A stretch of 64,000 bases of DNA from Clostridiales bacterium (GTDB lineage: Bacteria > Bacillota > Clostridia > Christensenellales > Aristaeellaceae). Below the pieces are notes generated by a model. That model was not told the DNA's origin. It was given only the letters and a program-made list of their open reading frames with translations, and made no database searches. The stretch is taken from positions 1 through 64,000 of the forward strand of contig SVGQ01000002.1 in the NCBI GenBank assembly GCA_015056245.1, written 5' to 3'. Both the position numbers and the translations under genes were made by a program. Position 1 is the stretch's first letter; each line of letters opens with the position of its first letter. Below are positions 31,043 to 47,097 of the stretch, piece by piece.

Positions 31043-32863
31043 TCAGGGATGTACCGGCTGCAGCTTCGCGTCCCCGCCCTCTGCCACAAGCTGGTAAAGA
31101 GCGCCGCTGCGGATGGCATCCGCTTCGCCAAACAGAGAGCCATAAGCCTCCCGGAAGCGTTCATCCGCATCGAACAAATACAGGTGGGTGAAGCCATCCT
31201 TCACAAGGAAATTCATCCACTCTTCCGGCGTGCTTTCCGGCATGGCGGAGCGGACGATCTTCACCGGGGTAAACTCGTAACGATTGATCAGGAATGTCAG
31301 GTCATTGTTGGTGGCAGACAGATAGCATACCTTGTGCTCCGGGTTCAGCGTATCCAGCACTTCCTGGGAGGGGCCGTTCACCGCGCGGCTGATGGCAGCG
31401 CCCCGCACATATTCCTGATAGCCGATGGTGTTGTTTTCCAGCCGAGCCGGGTTGATCGCCACCAGAACGCAGAGCATCAGCAGCCAGCAACGCCCGTCGT
31501 TGCCTTCCTGCGCCGGGTGATAGCGGCTGCGCAGCACCACCAGCAGCGCGCCCGCCAGAAAGATTGCCGCAGTGGACAGGTACCGTTCGCTGGCCATGGT
31601 GACAGCCGCTTCCCGTTCGGAAAAATGGAAGAAGTAGGTCAGCAACAAAAACGCACTGTACGCAACCGCTGCCAAGGCCGCTGTTCCCAGCAGCCAGCGG
31701 TCGCGGCGCAGGGATGCATCTGCCTTGGCGCCCTTGGTAGCCACCAATGCAACAACCATAAATGCGCCCAGCCACAAAAGCAGCGAATGCTCCGTAAAGC
31801 GCTGCCAGACATCTGCCTCAACCAGCTTACCAAGATAGCTTTGCAAGCCTTGCTGCTGATAGGGTTTCAAACCATTGGTAACGATCTCCACAAGCCGGTT
31901 GGTATGGGTCTGCACCGCCACCTCCCCGGGCATCAGAATGCCCAGATAAGTCTCCCAGCTTACCTTGCCCGCAAGGGCGCTGCCAACCAATGCCAGCGTC
32001 TTCAGCAGGCGGACAAGCAGCGAACCCTGGCGCTGAAAGCACAGAAGATCCACCGCGATCACCAGTGCCACCAGCAGCGCGATGCCCACACCGGAAACCT
32101 TGGTGATGGACAACACCAGAAGCGCCAGGCAGCAAACCGGCAGGGTTTCGCCCTTCTCCGGCGAGGTATAGGCGAAATACAGCGGATACACCGTCATGCA
32201 GCCCAGCAGGGAATCCACCAACAGCGAATTATAGCAATCCCCATTGAATACAAGGGGCAACAGCACGCACACCGTACCAAGGGGCAGAATGCTCTTCCAA
32301 TTCTTCCAGCTGAGATGACTCGCCAGCGGCATAAGCATGCTGAACAAGAGCAGATTGATGGAGCGGAACATGTCTCCTTCGTTCAGCGCACCTGCCAGCC
32401 AGTTCCAGTAGTAAGCCAGCAGCGCCGTCGCCGGGGGATAATTGCGGAAATAGACCGTGGACTCTTCCATAGCATTGGGAATCGCGTTGAAAAGCACCAT
32501 GTTTTTGATTTCCAACACCCAATGGGAATAGTCATCGTAATGATCGGTCACCCGGTTGCGGCAGCAAACCAACTGCCAAAGAAGAAAAACCGCGAAAATC
32601 AACAGTCCCGGGGTCAGCAGATCAAAAAGCCGCCTTCCCCGTCCCTTGAATACCAGCATCAGGCACACCACGCCGCTGGCGGCCGCCAGCCCCGTGACCA
32701 CATACGCGCCAGTCTCCAGAAAACCAAACAGGCCAAAGCCATAGAGCACCGCAATGATGGACAGGTGGGAAAACCCAAACATTTCCTCGATCTTCCGCTC
32801 CCACAAAAGCGCCAGCGAGCCAGAGAGGCTTACGATTACGAGGCCCATCAAAATCGTGCTCAT
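31043..32863 (-). CDS. Large integral membrane protein, GT39/GT83-like
   Basis: VTDHYDDYSHWVLEIKNMVLFNAIPNAMEESTVYFRNYPPATALLAYYWNWLAG; about 12 TM helices by eye. Confidence 0.65.
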   Translation of the reverse strand: MSTILMGLVIVSLSGSLALLWERKIEEMFGFSHLSIIAVLYGFGLFGFLETGAYVVTGLAAASGVVCLMLVFKGRGRRLFDLLTPGLLIFAVFLLWQLVCCRNRVTDHYDDYSHWVLEIKNMVLFNAIPNAMEESTVYFRNYPPATALLAYYWNWLAGALNEGDMFRSINLLLFSMLMPLASHLSWKNWKSILPLGTVCVLLPLVFNGDCYNSLLVDSLLGCMTVYPLYFAYTSPEKGETLPVCCLALLVLSITKVSGVGIALLVALVIAVDLLCFQRQGSLLVRLLKTLALVGSALAGKVSWETYLGILMPGEVAVQTHTNRLVEIVTNGLKPYQQQGLQSYLGKLVEADVWQRFTEHSLLLWLGAFMVVALVATKGAKADASLRRDRWLLGTAALAAVAYSAFLLLTYFFHFSEREAAVTMASERYLSTAAIFLAGALLVVLRSRYHPAQEGNDGRCWLLMLCVLVAINPARLENNTIGYQEYVRGAAISRAVNGPSQEVLDTLNPEHKVCYLSATNNDLTFLINRYEFTPVKIVRSAMPESTPEEWMNFLVKDGFTHLYLFDADERFREAYGSLFGEADAIRSGALYQLVAEGGDAKLQPVHP

Positions 32864-32905: not shown

Positions 32906-33640
32906 TTACAGATGCTTGACGTAGGTATACAGCGTATCGGAAATGGTCGCGCCAACGCTCACGTAAATCCGCAGCACCTTGGAGTTGTTGCTCACAAAGG
33001 TGGAAGTGAGCCGCTTGCAGTCGTAGGTGAAGCAGGTATCCAGCGTCTTTTTGTGAAGCAGCACGCCAAGGCCGCGGTCGTTGCGCTCATCGTACATGGC
33101 CATCAGCACCGGATCCACGGTGTTTTCATCCTTGCGCATGATGACAAAAAAGCCGATGGCCTTGTCCTTCTGATACACCTCGTAGAGATCCGCGCCCTTG
33201 ATGAGCATATTGCGCAGCCAATTGGCATAGCGGTTGCCGCCGATCTCCGGCGAAAACGCCGGATCCAGCGTGATACGGTCGCTGCGGAAGATGCCGGAAT
33301 GGATCTTTTCGAACACAGGCGCCCATTCCTCCGGGTTGGCGCAGTGCTTCACCGTCAGCCCCCGGTCAAAACGGGCGATGCCGTCCGGCGAATGGTAATC
33401 GCTGCGGCGCACCTCGATCTTGAAAACTGTCTCCACATAGGTATAGCCCAGCTTAGGCAGGCCAAAGAGCAAATGGGAGCAGTTGACCGGTGTTTTGAGC
33501 ACGATATACTCCGCGCCCTCTGCCGCCAGACGCTTTTCCTCCTCGGCGACAGCCTCAGGGGTATCCTGATCGCTTAGGAAGATCTCATAAGCGTTCACGC
33601 CCAGATTCTCTTTTTCCCACACGGCATGAATGGTCTGCAT
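32906..33640 (-). CDS. GNAT-like protein (putative acyl/acetyltransferase)
   Basis: VLMAMYDERNDRGLGVLLHKKTLDTCFTYDCKRLTSTFVSNNSKVLRIYVSVG pattern. Confidence 0.55.
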   Translation of the reverse strand: MQTIHAVWEKENLGVNAYEIFLSDQDTPEAVAEEEKRLAAEGAEYIVLKTPVNCSHLLFGLPKLGYTYVETVFKIEVRRSDYHSPDGIARFDRGLTVKHCANPEEWAPVFEKIHSGIFRSDRITLDPAFSPEIGGNRYANWLRNMLIKGADLYEVYQKDKAIGFFVIMRKDENTVDPVLMAMYDERNDRGLGVLLHKKTLDTCFTYDCKRLTSTFVSNNSKVLRIYVSVGATISDTLYTYVKHL

Positions 33641-33727
33641 GGTGTTGGCCTCCTTAGGAGAAAATGATGAAACAAGCTATTGATAGAAGCGCTGCTTGGA
33701 TTCGGCTGCGCAGGCCGATGGAGCGGC

Positions 33728-34723
33728 TCAGGCACCCAAAGCGGAGTTTCCTTCTGCTTCGGTGGATTCCACACACGAAGCGGCAGAAGGGGTCTGAAGA
33801 TCGCCGGAGCGCACCACTTCCCGCACCACAAACTGGGGATAGCGGTTGATGCTCAGATAGATGCGCCCGATATACTCGCCCACGATGCCGATCAGGCCGA
33901 TGATCAGGCCGCCCATGACCATGATCAGGGCCACAGTGCTGGCCCAGCCAGCCTGAATGGCAGGATCCACGATCTTGCGGATGATGGTGATCAGCGCGAA
34001 CAGGAAACCGATCGCCGCCACAATCCAGCCCAGATAGCTGGCCAGGCGCAGGGGCTTGATGGAGAAAGCGGTAACGCCGTTGAGCCACAAGCCGATGAGT
34101 TTTTTCAGATTGTAGCCGCTGCTGCCCTCCATGCGCTCCTTGTGCTCCACCCGCACATTGGCGTAAGTGCCCACACTCTGGAACAGAAGGCCCGTCACGT
34201 ACGGGAAGGGGTTGGGGTATTGCAGGGCGCTGTCCACCACAAAGCGGCGGCAGGCGAAATAGCTGTTGGCCTTCAGTTCCTTGGGCTGGGCAAAGAAGAA
34301 ATGGTTGCAGGCCGCGTTGAACTTGCTGCCCAGATTGCGGAAGGCGCTCTGCTTGCGCTCGCCGTACTCGGCAAACACGATGTCATGGCCCTCGTTTACC
34401 TTGTCGATCAGCTTGAGGCACTCGCAGGCAGGGGTCTGACCGTCATCATCCAGACAGATGATGATATCGCCCCGCACCTGATGGAAACCTGCCATCAGCG
34501 CGCTGTGCTGCCCGAAATTGCGGCTCAGATCCACCGCCACCACTTCCGGATGCTTCTGGGCCAGCGCCTTGATGGCATCGGCGGTATGGTCGGGGCTGCC
34601 GTCGTTGACCAGAATGATCTCACACTTTTCCTCCGGGCGGGCGGCGACGGTTTGCAGAATTTCTTCCACCACAATGCCTACGGTGTGTTCAGACCGGTAA
34701 CAGGGAATCACAAAAGATAACAT
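33728..34723 (-). CDS. Glycosyltransferase family 2 (DPM1/ArnC-like)
   Basis: LSFVIPCYRSEHTVGIVVEEI; ILVNDGSPDHTADAI; DLSRNFGQHSALMAGFHQVRGDIIICLDDDGQTP; two C-terminal TM helices. Confidence 0.93.
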   Translation of the reverse strand: MLSFVIPCYRSEHTVGIVVEEILQTVAARPEEKCEIILVNDGSPDHTADAIKALAQKHPEVVAVDLSRNFGQHSALMAGFHQVRGDIIICLDDDGQTPACECLKLIDKVNEGHDIVFAEYGERKQSAFRNLGSKFNAACNHFFFAQPKELKANSYFACRRFVVDSALQYPNPFPYVTGLLFQSVGTYANVRVEHKERMEGSSGYNLKKLIGLWLNGVTAFSIKPLRLASYLGWIVAAIGFLFALITIIRKIVDPAIQAGWASTVALIMVMGGLIIGLIGIVGEYIGRIYLSINRYPQFVVREVVRSGDLQTPSAASCVESTEAEGNSALGA

Positions 34724-34747
34724 GGTTCTTGCCTCTTTCTTTGATGG

Positions 34748-35947
34748 TCAGATTGCGTCGATCACCCGGCTCAGGGTACGGATCAGGTCGATGCCGTCCC
34801 AAGTCAGGGAAAAATCCATGGTTGCGCCCACCGGAGCGATACGGTCAATACCGGCAAGGCGGTTGTCCCGCACAAAACGGCGAAGCTCGTCTTTGTCCAG
34901 CCCCAGATAGCTCAGGGTCTGATATTTGCGCTTCACCACCGGGATGAGATCAGCAAGCGTGTCCGTGGCATATTCCAGAAAGAACCCGCCCGGGCAGCGG
35001 TTTTCCTCGATTTCGCCGGAAAGCTCTCGAAGCTGGATGCGCACGATCAGGTTATCCGGCATGGGAACGACGCGGCTCCCCGGCAGCTGCAAAGCCGCCC
35101 GGCAGGCTGCTGTCAGCTTATCCACCGCCACCACCGGCTCCAAGAGATACCGGCTGGAAGCATAGCGGTGCACCGCGTTCCAGAAGCGGTCCTGCGCCTT
35201 CGCCAGCGTTTCGCCCTCGCCCAGCCAGTAAACCAGCCGGGGGGAGGTACAGGCATTCTGGTCGGTGAGGTACGTATCGTTGTAGAAACCCTGCGCGGCC
35301 TTTTCCAGCTTCTTGTCGTCCATTTGCAGAACGGCTTCGGCACGGATCGCCAGCAGGCTGTAACGATCCGGGAAGGTGACCTCATTGGCGTGGGGCATCA
35401 GGGTTGCCATGCGCACCCGGCGCACGGTCTCATCACCGCCCCAGATGATGCGGCTGTCACAGGCAGCGGACAGCTGCTCCGTGATGTCCTGCCGTTCCCT
35501 GGGGTAGATGACCACATTCACATGATCCCGCAGGGCCTTGTGAGCATCGTCCAAAAGCTGCTTCATGGCAGCGCAGACGATGCGGGTCTGGGGGAAATCC
35601 TGACTGGAGGCTTTCACCACACAGGCATTGCCTGCCAGCAGGGCAGCCACCAGAGAGTACGCAAAGTTGATGGGCACATTGCTGGGGGCAATGTGAAAGC
35701 TGAGTCCCCGGCCCAGCCTGTTATCCAGCGCATCCTGATATTGACCGCGCAACTGTTCCAGATGCGCCCGGCGGCAAAAAAACGCGAAGGTGACCACATC
35801 CGGGTAGGGACGGGCAGCCGGGGTTTTCATCAGCAGCGCGGACAGGTCGGACAGGAAGGAGAGCACTTCATCGGCAAAGGGCGCAAGGGGCTGGGCTTTT
35901 TCCCAATCGCCGCCGCACAGGAGGGTGCCAAGATCATTTCTGCTCAT
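34748..35947 (-). CDS. Acyl-CoA reductase, LuxC-like
   Basis: Catalytic-Cys-type motif LTDQNACTSPRLVYW; LSFHIAPSNVPINFAYSLVAALLAGNACVVKASSQDFPQ. Confidence 0.88.
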   Translation of the reverse strand: MSRNDLGTLLCGGDWEKAQPLAPFADEVLSFLSDLSALLMKTPAARPYPDVVTFAFFCRRAHLEQLRGQYQDALDNRLGRGLSFHIAPSNVPINFAYSLVAALLAGNACVVKASSQDFPQTRIVCAAMKQLLDDAHKALRDHVNVVIYPRERQDITEQLSAACDSRIIWGGDETVRRVRMATLMPHANEVTFPDRYSLLAIRAEAVLQMDDKKLEKAAQGFYNDTYLTDQNACTSPRLVYWLGEGETLAKAQDRFWNAVHRYASSRYLLEPVVAVDKLTAACRAALQLPGSRVVPMPDNLIVRIQLRELSGEIEENRCPGGFFLEYATDTLADLIPVVKRKYQTLSYLGLDKDELRRFVRDNRLAGIDRIAPVGATMDFSLTWDGIDLIRTLSRVIDAI

Positions 35948-37016
35948 AGGTATCGCTGCACCCCCTGACCTCAGCCCGCTTGATGCGGCCCAGAATCTCG
36001 AATGTTTTGCCCTTGCGGCCGCAGGGGCAGTCATCCTCGCCGAGGATGCGGCCCTCGTCCTCAGTGAGCAGTACATGGCCCGGATAGCTGCGGGGCAGCA
36101 GGCTGCTGACCTGAATCAGGCCGGTCTCCCCCACATCCGCTACGGAAAAGTCCCCGGGACGGCGGATGGTGATATCAGACCACACCGGCGCATGCAGATG
36201 CCCGCATTCGCACTCCATATAAACGGTGCCGGTCTGCTCCACCATGCCATAGTAGTTATGCACCCGGGTAAGACCGCAGGTATCCCGCAGCGCATTTTTG
36301 AACTGCTCCGTGGTGATGTACTGATCCGCCAGCTTCTTCCAGCCGCCGCCGTGCACCAGAATGCCCCGGCTCAGATCCGGCTGGTAGCCGGTCTTTTTCA
36401 GCTGGTCGATGAAATGCTGCCAGATCATAAAGGTAAAGCCGAACAGGAAGATGTCCTCTCCCTGATGCTTCTCGAGGAACGCGGTCAGGCCGTCCACATC
36501 CAGCTGCATGTTTTCATCCAGCGCATACAGCTTATCCCGGGCGAACATGCTGAACCCCAGAATGCCCGCGCCCCGGGCAGAAAACATGGCCCGGTTCTTG
36601 ATCACCGCCGAGGTATCCAGAATGATCATGGGCAGGCGCTGCTTCCCCAGAAAATCCGCCATGATGGCAGCCAGCACCTTGCTTTGCAGCGTGCTGGTCT
36701 CCCGGTCCAGAAAAATGCGGCTCACCTGCTGGCCCGTGGTGCCCGAGGAGGTCATGGTGCGGTGCAGGTCTTCCTCCGGCACGCTTTTGAGGCTGAATTC
36801 CTTGAACAGGCGCACCGGCAGCGGCGGCAGTTTCTCAAAGGACTGGATGCCCGCCGGATCGCAGCCCATGGCTTCCAGCATGCGGGCATACTCCGGGCAC
36901 CGGGCCGCGTGATGCAGACTCAGGGCCTTCAATTCCTCAGTGAGAAATGCCCGTTTTTCTTCCTTTGCCATGCCATAGGGCGGCAGAGTGTGCAAGGTGC
37001 TTACCTCAATGGACAT
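35934..37016 (-). CDS. Acyl-protein synthetase, LuxE-like
   Basis: LPPLPVRLFKEFSLKSVPEEDLHRTMTSSGTTGQQVSRIFLDRET; LVHGGGWKKLADQYITTEQFKNALRDTCGLTRVHNYYGMVEQTGTVYMEC. Confidence 0.9.
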   Translation of the reverse strand: MSIEVSTLHTLPPYGMAKEEKRAFLTEELKALSLHHAARCPEYARMLEAMGCDPAGIQSFEKLPPLPVRLFKEFSLKSVPEEDLHRTMTSSGTTGQQVSRIFLDRETSTLQSKVLAAIMADFLGKQRLPMIILDTSAVIKNRAMFSARGAGILGFSMFARDKLYALDENMQLDVDGLTAFLEKHQGEDIFLFGFTFMIWQHFIDQLKKTGYQPDLSRGILVHGGGWKKLADQYITTEQFKNALRDTCGLTRVHNYYGMVEQTGTVYMECECGHLHAPVWSDITIRRPGDFSVADVGETGLIQVSSLLPRSYPGHVLLTEDEGRILGEDDCPCGRKGKTFEILGRIKRAEVRGCSDTYEQK

Positions 37017-38412
37017 ACTGCTCCAACTCCCGGTACAGGGTCTTGCCTGCGTCGTTCTTGGGGATCGCGTCAAGCGGCTGGGTATGGAAACCAGCTATGT
37101 TCAAACCGGTTTTCTGGGACAGGAACGTGCGCATCTCCGGCAGCACATCCTCCCGGGTGGCAAACAGGTACAGGTGGTCATCCCGACCGCCGCAGGCCAC
37201 ATCCATGCCGGGAAACTGACCTTTCAGCATGCCCTCCAGCTCATCCAGATTCACCCGGTTACCGTACATCTTCAAAAAGCGCTTCTTGCGTCCCACGATG
37301 GTGAAGTAACCGTCCGCGTCCATCTGGGCCATATCGCCGGTTTCCAGCACGCCGCCCCGCTCGTCGCCCAGAGAAAGGTCGGCAGCACAGGTGGCATAGC
37401 CCAGCGTCACATTGTCACCGTGATAGCGGAGTTCACCCGTTACGCCGGTTTCGGTGATGGGGTTGCCGTTCACATCGATCAGCTCGAACCGGCCTCCGGG
37501 AATGGCGATGCCGATGGCGCCGATCTTTTCCAGACTGCGCTCCCAGGGCAGATACGCCATGCGGGCCGTGGCTTCGCACTGACCATACATCACAATGAAC
37601 TGCTTGCCCACTTCCCGGCACCAGTTCACAAACTTGCCGTGAAGCTCCGGCTGCAGCTTGCCGCCGGCCTGGGTCATGGTGCGCAGGGAGGGCAGATCCA
37701 TCCGCATGAAGCGCATCCGATCCAGCATTTCGTAGGTATACGGCACGCCGCCGAAGCTGGTGGCCTCCTCCTGACGGAAGAAGGTCCAGAAATCCCGCTG
37801 AGCGATGCCGCACTCCGTCATCAGAATGGTGGCACCCACCATCAGGTGGCTGTTGAGAATGCTGACGCCGTAGGTATAGTTCATGGGCAGCGTGGTGATG
37901 GGACGCTCGCTGGCATCCAGCTTCAGGTACTCCACGATGCTTTGGGTATTGGCTTCGATGTTGCGGTAGCTCTGGCGCACAAACTTGGGGCTGCCCGTAG
38001 AGCCGCTGGTGGTCAGCAGCAGGGCCAGCTCATCGTTGAGGCGGGTTTCCGTCCCGAAAGGGGTTTTCAGTAGATGATAGCCCCACAGGCTGTACACGCT
38101 CTCGCAGCCATCCCACGCAAAGCCTTCCGGCGCCCACAGGTACGCCGGATGATAGGCCTCGTACAGGCCGGTGAGCATATCCCGGTCCAGCTCCGCGTTC
38201 AAAAGCGCAGGCACCACGCCGTTCTCCACCAGACCCGCATAGCCCAACAGGCTGGCGGGGGTGTTCTTGCACAGCGTGAACACAAGGCAGCGGCCGCCCA
38301 TGGCATCCCGCAGCTTGCGGGCTTCCTGCGCCAGCTGGGCATAGGTCACCCGCTGACCATTTTCGCTGATCAGCGCCAGCGCGTCACCGTAGCGATCAAA
38401 GTTCCACATCAT
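37006..38412 (-). CDS. AMP-dependent acyl ligase (ANL superfamily)
   Basis: LLLTTSGSTGSPKFVRQSYRNI P-loop; VMYGQCEATARMAYL; ETGDMAQMDADGYFTIVGRKKRFLKMYGNRVN. Confidence 0.93.
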   Translation of the reverse strand: MMWNFDRYGDALALISENGQRVTYAQLAQEARKLRDAMGGRCLVFTLCKNTPASLLGYAGLVENGVVPALLNAELDRDMLTGLYEAYHPAYLWAPEGFAWDGCESVYSLWGYHLLKTPFGTETRLNDELALLLTTSGSTGSPKFVRQSYRNIEANTQSIVEYLKLDASERPITTLPMNYTYGVSILNSHLMVGATILMTECGIAQRDFWTFFRQEEATSFGGVPYTYEMLDRMRFMRMDLPSLRTMTQAGGKLQPELHGKFVNWCREVGKQFIVMYGQCEATARMAYLPWERSLEKIGAIGIAIPGGRFELIDVNGNPITETGVTGELRYHGDNVTLGYATCAADLSLGDERGGVLETGDMAQMDADGYFTIVGRKKRFLKMYGNRVNLDELEGMLKGQFPGMDVACGGRDDHLYLFATREDVLPEMRTFLSQKTGLNIAGFHTQPLDAIPKNDAGKTLYRELEQYVH

Positions 38413-38632
38413 ACTTGGCAAGGATCTCCTTCCCCTTTTCAAAGGAGCTCAGGTCAATGATGTCATCCATATCCACCATGATGTCGAAAGCGTCTTCCAG
38501 CGCAGCAATCAGGGTCATGTGACCCACGCTGTCCCAGGCAGGGCTTTCGCCGTACACAAGGGTGGAAACCTCAGCAGCAGGAACCTCCAGCGCTTCGGCA
38601 AAGGCATTGATGTACTTTTCCAGATTGGTCAT
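38396..38632 (-). CDS. Acyl carrier protein
   Basis: SPAWDSVGHMTLIAALEDAFDIMVDMDDIIDLSSF, phosphopantetheine Ser in DSVGHM. Confidence 0.9.
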   Translation of the reverse strand: MTNLEKYINAFAEALEVPAAEVSTLVYGESPAWDSVGHMTLIAALEDAFDIMVDMDDIIDLSSFEKGKEILAKYDVEL

Positions 38633-38649
38633 GGTTTGTCATCCTTTCT

Positions 38650-38958
38650 GTGATAGGGGGACGAGATGCGGGGCTCTGCCCCGCGCCCCGGCAGGGGAGA
38701 CGGAGGGAAGCGCGTGCCCAGTGGCGACGGAGGGAAGTGTGTGCCCAGTGGGCACTTGCGCGAAGCGCAAAACGACCCGAAGTCGTCAACCGAAACGAGT
38801 GTAGGCTACGGCAGTAGCCTGCATGAAGATTGAGGTTGCGGAACACAACGGCGAAGCCGTTAGCGACCCGCAGTCACGGGCCGAAGCGAGGGCAGGGCAC
38901 GGTTAGTGCCCAGAACACCGACTGAGGTTGCGGAACGATCCCCCTGCACCCCGCACAT
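38650..38958. repeat. Dispersed palindrome-rich intergenic element (copy D, long form with internal duplications)
   Basis: 27-bp tandem pair 38699-38725/38726-38752; two related units of about 84-92 bp each ending in TTGAGGTTGCGGAAC / CTGAGGTTGCGGAAC; many small stems. Confidence 0.75.
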
Positions 38959-39013
38959 GGGGTAATAATCCTTCGTTTAGTATAAGGTACTTGGGTTGTG
39001 AAGGTACTGTATT

Positions 39014-39757
39014 TTACAATATCCCGCCATCCACCCGCCAGACCTGACCTGTCACATAACTGGCCCGGTCGCTGGCCATGAAGGCGGCTACCTCGGCGAT
39101 CTCCTCCGGCTGAGCCTTGCGATGCATCAGCACCTTTTCCAGCTGTTCGGCTTCCACCTTTTCGCTCAGATCCTTCACCAGATCGGTGTCCGTCAGGCCC
39201 GGGGCAATGGCGTTGACCCGGATGCCCAGCGAGATCATCTCCCGGGCCAGCTTCTTGGTGGCAGCGATCAGCGCGGCTTTGGAGGCAGAGTAGTCCAGAC
39301 GGCTGTCGCCATCCAGACCTGCAATGCTGGCAACATTCACCACCGCGCCGCTCTTGGCCCGGGCCATCAGACGGGTGGCGGGGCGGGTCAGTTCCAGCGT
39401 GCCGAAGAAGTTGGTATCGAAGATGGCGCGCATCTCCGCTTCGGAGGTCATCTGGAACATCTTGTCCTCGTCCATGCGTCCGGCGTTGTTCACCAGAATA
39501 TGCAGAGGCTGCTTATCCGCCATCACCTGTTTGAAAGCGTCCTTGATGGCGGCAGTATCGCTCAGGTCGCAATAGACGGGTTTGATCCACACGCCGTACT
39601 GTTCCGCAGTGGCGCGGCAGTCAGCCTCGAAGGCTTCGCTGGGGGTGCGGGCAAAGGCCCAGATGTTGGCCCCTTCCCGGGCAAACACATGCAGCATGGC
39701 ATTGCCGATCCCCCGGGCAGTGCCGGTGATCAGGGCGTTCTTTCCGCTAAGCAGCAT
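39014..39757 (-). CDS. SDR family oxidoreductase (FabG-like)
   Basis: ALITGTARGIGNAML; ILVNNAGRMDE; LDYSASKAALIAATKKLA; MASDRASYVTGQVWRVDGGIL. Confidence 0.95.
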   Translation of the reverse strand: MLLSGKNALITGTARGIGNAMLHVFAREGANIWAFARTPSEAFEADCRATAEQYGVWIKPVYCDLSDTAAIKDAFKQVMADKQPLHILVNNAGRMDEDKMFQMTSEAEMRAIFDTNFFGTLELTRPATRLMARAKSGAVVNVASIAGLDGDSRLDYSASKAALIAATKKLAREMISLGIRVNAIAPGLTDTDLVKDLSEKVEAEQLEKVLMHRKAQPEEIAEVAAFMASDRASYVTGQVWRVDGGIL

Positions 39758-39758
39758 G

Positions 39759-41273
39759 TTATTCCCCCTTTTCGATGGTGACGCTGTCCTTCAGGTAGTA
39801 CTCTGCATACAGGTTCTGTACATACTCGCCCATTTCATCCACAGGCGCGTCGCCCATAAAGGCGGCGGGAATAGTGGTTACCGGGCGGAGAACCGCATCC
39901 GTGATGGCGGGATCGTTCATCTCCTGATCCCGCTGATCCATGGCTTCGTCATAGGCGGCAGCCTCGCCGCTGGCAAGGGAGCGCAAAGCGCTTCCGCTGG
40001 CCATGTTCTGGGGGCCATAGCTCAGTGTACCTTCAGGATGGTAGCAAATGCAGCCTACCACCAGCAGCGCTGCCAGCGCCAGCACTGCCATCACCCGGAT
40101 GCTTTCGCTGTCCGGGCAGCTGAGCCAGCTCAGCTCGCCGTTTTCCTGCTTGCGAATCAGCCAGCCGGCCCAGTACAGCACCAGCCCGGTGGACAGCAGC
40201 ACATAGCAGAAATAGTAGGTGTTCACCGTGCGTCCATCGCCCAGATAGTTGCCGGTAAACAATGTTGGGGTCAGCTGGGCGCAGAACAGGCAGATGCCCA
40301 CCGCAGTCACCAGCAGGGGATATCGGAAGCTGAGACGGCTATTTTTCAGCGCGCCGCTGAGCTGCCAAATGGCAATGCCCCACACCGCCACCAGCGGCAG
40401 GGAGAACCAGTAGCCCAGCAAAGAAACCCCGAAGAACATCGCCTGAGCGATTGCCACTACCGGGTTCAGGCCGCCGCCAAGGGTGGCGGCGCGCACTGCA
40501 TTGCCCGGCGCCATGGCGCTGAACACCATCAGCGCTGCCATCACCAGCGTGGACAGCAGCTGCGCAAAGCGCAGGGGGCGCTTTCCGTGGAAGGCATAGA
40601 TCAGCAGCAGCACATCTGCCAGCAGGGCAAAGAGCACCGTGGAATACTTGCTGCCGCCCACCAATCCGGAGAAAATCAGCAGCACCACAGACCAGATCAC
40701 CTGTCCGGCCTTGCTGCCGGCCCTCTCCATCCGCAGCCAGATGGCGAGCCGCACCAGCATCAGCGACCACATCAGCGTATAGGCCACACCGCCGTTAAAC
40801 CAGAAGAACGCTTCGCTCAGATCCGGCACAAACTGGATCATCACAAAGGCGGCGCAGGCAAGCACCAGCCAATAGGCCTGAGCGGATGCGCCCAGCCGGA
40901 AGCGGATGCTTTCCCGCAGGAAGCACCACAGGCTGAACAGGAAAAACGTCAGCAGAACAGCCGTGGTGATCCAGTAGTTGCCCTCGCCGAAAATGGCGGG
41001 CTGCAACGCGCTGATAAAGGAAGAAGTATACGTGCCTTCCCATGTGTTGCGGATCGCAACCGTATTCTCAAAAGCAGCCTTCACTGCTCCAGGAAAACCG
41101 CCGCCCTCCCGCACCGCTGCATGGGTACGGATGGAAAAGCCGAAATCATCGTAGCAGGCGTGATTAAAAAGCGAAATCGCATACAGAGGCACCAGACTGA
41201 CCAGCAGCATGGCAATCAGCACAAGGCATAAGAGCCGGCTTGAAATGCGCCATTTCATCAGGGGATTCTTCAT
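39759..41273 (-). CDS. DUF6056-like multi-TM protein (paralog 1)
   Basis: YAISLFNHACYDDFGFSIRTHA; WEGTYTSSFISALQPAIFGEGNY. Confidence 0.7.
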   Translation of the reverse strand: MKNPLMKWRISSRLLCLVLIAMLLVSLVPLYAISLFNHACYDDFGFSIRTHAAVREGGGFPGAVKAAFENTVAIRNTWEGTYTSSFISALQPAIFGEGNYWITTAVLLTFFLFSLWCFLRESIRFRLGASAQAYWLVLACAAFVMIQFVPDLSEAFFWFNGGVAYTLMWSLMLVRLAIWLRMERAGSKAGQVIWSVVLLIFSGLVGGSKYSTVLFALLADVLLLIYAFHGKRPLRFAQLLSTLVMAALMVFSAMAPGNAVRAATLGGGLNPVVAIAQAMFFGVSLLGYWFSLPLVAVWGIAIWQLSGALKNSRLSFRYPLLVTAVGICLFCAQLTPTLFTGNYLGDGRTVNTYYFCYVLLSTGLVLYWAGWLIRKQENGELSWLSCPDSESIRVMAVLALAALLVVGCICYHPEGTLSYGPQNMASGSALRSLASGEAAAYDEAMDQRDQEMNDPAITDAVLRPVTTIPAAFMGDAPVDEMGEYVQNLYAEYYLKDSVTIEKGE

Positions 41274-42769
41274 GGCTGCGCCTCCTCTCCCACGATGTGG
41301 ATCACATCTTTCTGATAATACCAGCACAGGGATGGACGCACATCGTATATGGCATCCGGCACCACCAGATCATCCATGAAAACGTCCGGTACCGCCGTCA
41401 GAGGCGCAAGGGTGATCTCCTTCTGGGTGGCATCGTTGAGCACCACCTCGCGGGCGGTCATCTCCACGTCATACTGGGCAGCTTCCCCGGTGACGATGCT
41501 CAGGGCGGCCTTCATGCCCTCCAGATTCTGCGGACCGTAGAGCACTTCCCCCTGAGGCTTGTAGCCGCACAGCCCCACCGCCAGCACGCAGGCCATCACA
41601 AAGGCAAAGAGCTTTTGCAGGTTGGCAGGAACCCTTACCTCCTGCGGCAGATGCTTCTGCACAAAGCCGGTCAGGTAGAAGGCGTACAGCAGGAAAAAGA
41701 TCACATAACTGATAAAATACGTATTCACAATGCGCCCGCCGCCGATGTGCACACCGGAGAACAGGGGCGGGGTCAGCTGGGTGCAATAGAGACAGATGAT
41801 CAGCGCCAACACCAGCCATGGATGGCTGAACTTCCATGTGGACTGCTTCGCAGCCTTCCAAAAGAAGGGAACCAGCAAGCCCGTCACGCCCACCAGCGCC
41901 AGGGTAGTATAACTGCCCATCAGCGCTACACCGTAATAGAAAGACTGGATGACCGCTTTCACCGGGGAACTGGTGTTGTTGATCATCAGAGCGCGCTTGT
42001 TGTTACCGGGGGCGGACATGCTGTACAGGAAGCACAGCGCCAGCACCAGAGCGGCAATCGCCAACAGGAAGCCTCTTTTCTGCTTCTTTACCAGCGACCA
42101 CAGCAGGGCCGTTGCCAGCAGGCACAGGCTGAACAGGCCGCCGCCGTAGCTGCCGCCGCCCAGCACCACCGCCAGCAGCACCAGCGCCACGGTAAGCAGA
42201 GCCGTTTTTGCCTTGGATTCGGCTTTCCACATCCGAACCGCCAACGCGGCAAAAAGCATCATCAGGGAATAGATAAACACATTGCCCACGCCGCCGTTGA
42301 ACCAGTACCAGGCCTCGCCGCTGTCCGGCATCAGCTGCAGCAGCAAGGAAAGGGTCAGGCAGCACAGAATGAACACCTGCCAGCGGTCCAGTCCCAGCCC
42401 CTTCTGACCGAACACCGTGCCGAGGAAGAACCAGCCGCACAGCAGAAACGCCGTCAACAGAATCAGGGAGGCCACAAAATACAGGCTTTCCGAGAAAATA
42501 CCCGGTTGCACATTGGTCAAAAGCGTGCCGGTATAGTTGCCCTGCCAGTTCTGGCGGGTTTCTTTGGCACTCTGGATGGCTTGACGGAGCACCGCGCTCA
42601 GGCTGCCGGTTTCCTGCCACACCTGATGCACATCCGCAGAAAAGCTGTAATCATCATAATAGGGGTGATTATACACAGAAATGGCGTACAGCGGCAGCGC
42701 GCTCGCCAGCAAAGCCAGCGCGCACAAGACAGCTGCCAGCCTGCGCAGAAAACGATCATCAAGGCGCAT
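41270..42769 (-). CDS. DUF6056-like multi-TM protein (paralog 2)
   Basis: YAISVYNHPYYDDYSFSADVHQ; WQGNYTGTLLTNVQPGIFSESLYF; ATGA overlap with paralog 1. Confidence 0.7.
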   Translation of the reverse strand: MRLDDRFLRRLAAVLCALALLASALPLYAISVYNHPYYDDYSFSADVHQVWQETGSLSAVLRQAIQSAKETRQNWQGNYTGTLLTNVQPGIFSESLYFVASLILLTAFLLCGWFFLGTVFGQKGLGLDRWQVFILCCLTLSLLLQLMPDSGEAWYWFNGGVGNVFIYSLMMLFAALAVRMWKAESKAKTALLTVALVLLAVVLGGGSYGGGLFSLCLLATALLWSLVKKQKRGFLLAIAALVLALCFLYSMSAPGNNKRALMINNTSSPVKAVIQSFYYGVALMGSYTTLALVGVTGLLVPFFWKAAKQSTWKFSHPWLVLALIICLYCTQLTPPLFSGVHIGGGRIVNTYFISYVIFFLLYAFYLTGFVQKHLPQEVRVPANLQKLFAFVMACVLAVGLCGYKPQGEVLYGPQNLEGMKAALSIVTGEAAQYDVEMTAREVVLNDATQKEITLAPLTAVPDVFMDDLVVPDAIYDVRPSLCWYYQKDVIHIVGEEAQP

Positions 42770-42894
42770 GGAGCCATCTCCTTTCTTCGGTGAATGCGGG
42801 GGCAGAAATAGCTGCTAACCCAACTTACATTATAACATTGTTTTCTCCGATTGGCTATAGCGGCGAAGAAATTCGCAGGGAAGGGCGGGCAGAA

Positions 42895-45540: not shown

Positions 45541-47097
45541 TCAGCGTCTCCACAGGATTACCCGCTGCCCGTCGGTGGCCTCTGCACCATCGAGCACAGG
45601 GTTCATGGCCCGGAGGCTGTCGCAGCTGACCCGGTAGCGTTTGGCAATGTCCCAGACACTTTCCCCGGGCTGGCTGAAATAGATGAGAATGCCGCTGTCA
45701 TCAGCGGGGGCGGGCTGATGGGACAGATCCGTTACGAAGGGTTCTTCCCCAAGAGCCACATCATAGCTGGACAGATGCAGGATGTACTTGATCTCCACCC
45801 GGTCGCTGGTAACGCAGGATACCTCCACGCCGGTGGTTTGCAGGGTGAGGGCGTCAGGCTGGCACAGGTCGCAGGCAAAGGCTGTACGGAAGGGTTCCTC
45901 TGTGCAGTAGGACTGGGGCGCGGCGGTATCGTCGGTCATGTAGAGGAAGCAGACTTCCATCATACCTTCCACGGTGAGCTTGCCGCCTGTGCGGGTCACA
46001 TCAGTAACGATGGGACGCAGATGCGCCGTCAGCGGGGTACGGGCAGGGGGCTCACCATCCAGCAGCAGCGTCATTTTGCCGCTTTCAGCGGTGCGCACCT
46101 GCCGCTGGGCCAGCACCCGACGGGTGGGCTGCATCTGCGGACAAATCAGATCCCCGCTGGTGGTGTAGGCATCCAGCAGGAGACACACATCCCGTCGCTT
46201 GGTCATTTGAGCGGTCAGGCCAATAAGCACTTCCGCCCGCAGGGTGCGCTGTCCTTCCTCCTGCCCCTCCTGAGACAGCACTGCCACATCCCGGATGACC
46301 GCGTCTGCGGTGAGCAGGTCCCCTTCCTCGCCGGTAAGGGGCAGGGTCTCCTCAAAAGGAATGGAATGACGGGTGATCACCAAAGGCCGGGACGGCATAG
46401 CGCTGAGATGGTATACCTCCAGATCGATCACCCCGGAGATGGTGACCCGTTCCTCGCCGCCCATCACATCCTGCACGCTGGCGGCGGCAGTGGCGTAGAG
46501 TGTGTCGGTGATCTGGAGAACATCGCTTAGCTCGCACTCGTCCCGCACCAGCACATCCTGCTGCCCAAGGGCCACTGTGCGGCAGGTTTGCAGGGTCTCG
46601 GTTTTCTGCATCAGGCCATCGGCGGGGCGCAGACCGCCCACCATGCGCATAGGTTCCTCGCCAAACAGCCGGGCATAGATTTTCAGAATGGCCATCAATT
46701 TCAGCCGCCCGCCCTGAGCGGAGGCTTCCACATGCTCGGTGGTCAGGCTGACGGGCACATTCATGCCGGGGCGGGCTTTGGGCAGCTCAATGGTCTGGCT
46801 GAAATCGGCGGCGGCTTCCAGCGTGTTGATGCGGGTGGGATCCCCCTGGGTGTACAGCACATGAAAGATCACTTTGCCGTCCACATCGGCCCGCCCGGAC
46901 TGAACCGTCACCTTCTCCACCACCGCCATGGCCTGAGCAGACAGAATAACCGTTTCCTCCCGCAGTCCGCCGGGCAGCGCCACTTCTCCCTCCACCACAG
47001 CCTGGCGCAAACTGTCGCCCAGATACTGGCACATCGCAATTTCTTCCCAAAGGATCTCGGGCGCTTTGCCCATCTTGTCCTGCTGTTTCTGATCCAT
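45541..47097 (-). CDS. DUF3794 + LysM protein (SipL-like, sporulation)
   Basis: Repeated VVEGEVALPGG...VIFHVLYT / VISGVIDLEVYHL-type DUF3794 segments; C-terminal LysM FSQPGESVWDIAKRYRVSCDSLRAMNPVLDGAEATDGQRVILW. Confidence 0.8.
   Translation of the reverse strand: MDQKQQDKMGKAPEILWEEIAMCQYLGDSLRQAVVEGEVALPGGLREETVILSAQAMAVVEKVTVQSGRADVDGKVIFHVLYTQGDPTRINTLEAAADFSQTIELPKARPGMNVPVSLTTEHVEASAQGGRLKLMAILKIYARLFGEEPMRMVGGLRPADGLMQKTETLQTCRTVALGQQDVLVRDECELSDVLQITDTLYATAAASVQDVMGGEERVTISGVIDLEVYHLSAMPSRPLVITRHSIPFEETLPLTGEEGDLLTADAVIRDVAVLSQEGQEEGQRTLRAEVLIGLTAQMTKRRDVCLLLDAYTTSGDLICPQMQPTRRVLAQRQVRTAESGKMTLLLDGEPPARTPLTAHLRPIVTDVTRTGGKLTVEGMMEVCFLYMTDDTAAPQSYCTEEPFRTAFACDLCQPDALTLQTTGVEVSCVTSDRVEIKYILHLSSYDVALGEEPFVTDLSHQPAPADDSGILIYFSQPGESVWDIAKRYRVSCDSLRAMNPVLDGAEATDGQRVILWRR

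Follow-up and report, generated by a model that had tools for sequence, protein, structure and literature searches.

We found that a reductase set of LuxE and LuxC type lies inside a glycan operon in the window (the whole 64,000-nucleotide stretch of DNA analysed, from a gut bacterium), as the first-pass annotation had proposed, and we tentatively read this operon, with a probability of roughly 0.4, as making an unusual small acyl group and attaching it to a cell-envelope amino sugar. LuxE would activate one carboxyl of a small acid, LuxC would convert the activated carboxyl to an aldehyde, an SDR would take the aldehyde to the alcohol, and an ANL ligase would load the resulting hydroxy acid onto an ACP. 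A WecD-like GNAT would then move the hydroxyacyl group from the ACP to the amino group of a nucleotide sugar, an ArnC-like GT2 would pass the sugar to undecaprenyl phosphate, and GT-C-like membrane proteins would transfer it outside the cell. We infer every one of these reactions, as well as the acid and its size, the sugar, the acceptor, the order of the steps and the direction of flow, and we prefer this tetronate-type reading because under it neither activating enzyme is left idle, nor is the acyltransferase.

The cassette itself comprises five genes, all on the minus strand, namely a FabG-like SDR (39014..39757; PF13561 6e-56, with TGxxxGIG, NNAG and YxxxK), an ACP (38396..38632; DSVGHM, PF00550 E 1.7e-4, barely past the cut-off), an ANL acyl-adenylate ligase (37006..38412; PF00501 4e-42, with TSGSTGSPK, YGQCE, TGD and GKT), a LuxE-like acyl-protein synthetase (35934..37016; PF04443 3e-48) and a LuxC-like acyl reductase (34748..35947; PF05893 2e-32). 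The last four had been described as overlapping by about 11–17 nt, and both their coordinates and their overlaps are confirmed (17 nt for ACP/ANL, 11 nt for ANL/LuxE and 14 nt for LuxE/LuxC), with Pfam supporting each assignment. Directly 3' of LuxC, and thus placing the cassette with a glycosyltransferase, lies an ArnC/PgfS-like GT2 (33728..34723, minus strand; PF00535 1e-26, two C-terminal membrane spans), followed on the same strand by a WecD-like GNAT-fold N-acyltransferase (32906..33640; no Pfam match, structure model pLDDT 92) and by a large membrane protein, also without a Pfam match (31043..32863), that is found in some relatives and missing from others. Upstream of the SDR, and again on the minus strand, are DUF6056 membrane protein a, which is putatively GT-C-like (39759..41276; PF19528 E 1.8e-11, model pLDDT 86.5), and multi-spanning membrane protein b (41270..42769). 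Both had been called DUF6056-like at first pass; the call stands for a, while b falls below the family cut-off (PF19528 E 1.2e-4), yet is syntenic in relatives. An extended -10 promoter-like site lies upstream of the operon (42829..42857, minus strand; 10/12 matches, TG before the second hexamer), a weak signal given that 5 such sites were observed against 3.7 expected. Near the glycan locus, the window also encodes a protein with SipL/SPOCS and LysM domains (45541-47097).

SDR and ACP are separated by 381 nt, a gap occupied by a dispersed repeat (38667-38958, minus strand), and a single transcript across this gap is a prediction. The repeat has 53 matches in its own assembly, itself counted, and recurs in 14/17 genus genomes. 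Evaluated as RNA, it folds better than 199/200 shuffles (z -2.73), and Rfam returned no match for it, nor for any other part of the window.

The catalytic residues of the cassette are intact. Besides the ANL, ACP and SDR motifs, all in place, LuxE aligns with the LuxE of the solved lux reductase 7xc6 as far as its C-terminal GCS, such that the cysteines of the LuxE RGCS and the LuxC DQNAC both align with that structure, and the LuxC cysteine (Cys233) is invariant across 8 diverse LuxC proteins. The likeness to the bioluminescence reductase thus covers both enzyme families and their cysteines, but the window locus lacks luxA/B/D, and the curated equivalog cut-offs were missed by a wide distance (65.8 of 550 bits for LuxE, 58.5 of 750 bits for LuxC). 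In the LuxE tree, window-type LuxE proteins form a clade of their own (support 96/96), distant from 7xc6, which sits on a very long branch that leaves its own position unsure. In lux chemistry, LuxD releases the acid for LuxE and LuxC. The absence of a luciferase gene, noted at first pass for this locus, extends to the host assembly (81% complete), where Bac_luciferase PF00296 had no match, and we reject bioluminescence on this ground.

We then consider conservation, where the first-pass annotation had suggested looking for a shared gene order. LuxC matches above 60 bits were found in 13/17 genus genomes searched, the window's own included, and the order DUF6056b-DUF6056a-SDR-ACP-ANL-LuxE-LuxC-GT2-GNAT is kept in the twelve others, with two contigs ending inside it; the identical order also occurs in one genome from another genus. 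Most syntenic relatives carry SpoT next after the block and an ACP that is 76-94% identical. Because this synteny is conserved, a chance origin of the gene grouping is untenable. Among the four genus genomes without LuxC (one 80% complete, three 93-95% complete), GNAT and DUF6056a had no match and the best ANL matches were only 22-29% identical, compared with 71-91% in two positive-control genomes. The simplest reading is that LuxC, GNAT, DUF6056a and the ANL orthologue are all truly missing from these genomes, and since they are missing together, the block behaves as one unit. Across the phylum, a LuxE match at E 1e-20 was seen in 6/300 genomes drawn, again including the window's own, so the cassette is common in the genus and sporadic outside it. 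Candidatus Limiplasma, a genus placed in Clostridia, is among the closest named records.

The genes that flank the cassette would suit a lipid-carried amino sugar. Among PDB structures, the GNAT model has the WecD fold as its best match (2fs5, TDP-fucosamine acetyltransferase; E 2.2e-15, TM 0.68/0.74), and against the curated WecD model NF008212 the protein scores 31.7 of 219 bits, under the cut-off. The GT2 most resembles ArnC and PgfS (NF007986 1e-52, NF047588 2e-46, both under the curated cut-offs), and the best PDB folds for the DUF6056a model are the GT-C proteins STT3, AftA, EmbB and Pmt4, a weak likeness with E of at least 1.9e-3 and TM of at most 0.37. Compared with the Arn-type undecaprenyl amino-sugar route, the locus shares an ArnC-like GT2 and, putatively, GT-C-like proteins, and some of its relatives encode an EamA-like small protein 3' of the GT2/GNAT pair; it differs in that ArnA, ArnD and ArnT were not identified at the window locus. 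DegT genes are likewise missing from the window locus, which we count against the main reading, and are present elsewhere in the host genome.

Published gene clusters already contain the block, and the proposal of an undescribed system made at first pass is therefore not supported. In Aeromonas group II flagellin glycosylation islands, genes for an ACP, a 3-oxoacyl-ACP reductase and an AMP-dependent synthetase accompany luxE and luxC, and a GT2 gene lies 3' of luxC (PMC7874193), and enterobacterial flagellin islands hold overlapping families, i.e., ACP, LuxE, LuxC, a CaiC-type ligase and FabG (PMC4875605). Judged from published gene descriptions, the Aeromonas island thus shares the five-gene set and the GT2 after luxC with the window locus, but has pseudaminic acid genes and a flagellin target of its own, whereas the window locus has the two DUF6056 proteins, the WecD-like GNAT, the ArnC/PgfS-like GT2 and no flagellin found. 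The closest functional guide is V. cholerae O1, where RfbN, a protein with a LuxE domain, takes part in making tetronate (PMC4772473) and where VC0249 to VC0252 correspond to RfbL, an iron-containing alcohol dehydrogenase, RfbN and an acetyltransferase (PMC9201469). By description, this rfbL-rfbO/wbe cluster resembles ours in an ANL-size RfbL/WbeL (471 aa), a reductase, a LuxE-domain protein and an acetyltransferase, and in a product that acylates amino sugars, as we propose for the window locus; it differs in that RfbN is annotated as a single synthase/reductase protein and in that the dehydrogenase is iron-containing rather than an SDR. In that organism tetronate acylates the amino groups of perosamine and wild-type O antigen requires wbeL (VC0249), both of which we count in favour of the hydroxyacyl model. 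Tetronate, the product of the nearest case in which the product is known, is a C4 hydroxy acid, leaving the earlier description of the acyl group as 'fatty' unsupported. A tetronyl unit, C4H6O3, has a computed mass of 102.03 and would fit the unexplained unit of 102 Da (nominal mass) in the A. piscicola flagellin glycan, as would O-methylglyceryl and other formulas. What is new here is a genus in whose searched genomes no flagellin was found and the WecD-like fold of the protein first labelled only 'GNAT-like'.

Beyond the genus, a scan of named genomes returned at least 563 LuxE relatives, from which we assessed 51 distant loci, a non-random sample made up of those with enough flanking DNA among the best 80 by similarity. 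Partners were counted via tblastn where possible, as ORF calling sometimes took antisense frames in high-GC loci. These loci belong to Bacillota, Bacteroidota, Pseudomonadota and other phyla, most of them combine ACP, ANL, LuxE and LuxC, and ANL (50 loci), ACP (48) and SDR (41) are the commonest partners, ahead of a DegT aminotransferase (27), a thioesterase (16) and a WecD-like GNAT (12). Two activation steps would explain why LuxE and the ANL/ACP pair are retained together to this extent. Across 50 of the loci, DegT was present in 10/11 with a WecD-like GNAT against 16/39 without (Fisher p 0.005, in a test that ignores kinship and was picked after seeing the data), a co-occurrence that we count for amino-sugar acylation. 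On a Deinococcus plasmid (L132), exopolysaccharide genes adjoin a set that encodes ACP, SDR, ANL, LuxE, LuxC and an acetyltransferase. In 8/51 distant loci, a gene of the lactate/malate-dehydrogenase family lies directly 3' of LuxC (e.g., L088, 10265-11230).

These same loci bear on the direction of flow. Were it the reverse of our proposal, running from acyl-ACP to an aldehyde as the first-pass annotation had inferred, the ANL would load an acid on the ACP, the SDR would act on the ACP-bound acyl group, and LuxE and LuxC would then yield an aldehyde or alcohol to be joined to a glycan or lipid. Such a flow agrees with lux chemistry and suits the thioesterase genes, which often stand right before LuxE, as well as the KAS III or FabZ genes of some other loci, all of which we count against the main reading; a liposugar product has also been suggested by the authors of both flagellin papers (PMC7874193, PMC4875605). 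It is nonetheless the less likely direction for the window locus, which has no thioesterase, ketosynthase or dehydratase, and where the WecD-like GNAT would be left without an obvious donor made by the cassette; in addition, the sole relative with a known product yields a C4 acid.

More doubtful still is that the aldehyde serves as a carbon-chain precursor, to be extended by a split transketolase or by an ALS-like enzyme with NeuB and then aminated by DegT, with the partner enzyme coded elsewhere in the window version. Split transketolase genes (TktN + TktC) do adjoin ACP, ANL, LuxE and LuxC in 28/51 distant loci (e.g., L079, L062, L069 and L108) and an ALS-like enzyme with NeuB is found in 7/51, with Pfam confirming Tkt/ALS representatives, and a split transketolase is present elsewhere in the host genome. 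Yet this host pair, at 36-39% identity, may have a housekeeping role, and neither ThDP partner is present in 14/51 loci or in the window type.

Last, we consider it very improbable that the cassette serves flagellin glycosylation of the Aeromonas and Kosakonia kind, since despite the matching gene set and a Kosakonia cassette (L091) beside fliA and fliZ, no flagellin was found in any of the 13 genus genomes searched, i.e., the window's own (81% complete) and 12 others, in a search whose controls recovered E. coli and B. subtilis flagellin. The fliZ/fliA position of L091 is the one occupied by published flagellin glycosylation islands. The L091 locus shares its families with the enterobacterial islands and the window locus, has a LuxE 59% identical to the window's, and additionally carries NeuD, a second SDR and the split transketolase; its LuxE and LuxC genes had no match in E. 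coli at the DNA level.

Returning to the small-hydroxyacyl reading, a gene block that had been linked to flagellin 'liposugar' synthesis in earlier discussion is now seen with fixed partners where flagellin was not found, and its neighbouring predicted amino-sugar acyltransferase yields a concrete prediction of the chemistry that the flagellin papers left open, including for the 102 Da Aeromonas unit. At its broadest, and as a possibility that we hold with more doubt than the main reading, the cassette may make an N-acyl group new to Gram-positive envelope glycans, destined for a lipid-carried amino sugar, and its core, widespread across several phyla of gut bacteria, may in general supply surface glycans with reduced acyl units, often coupled to chain extension of the transketolase type.
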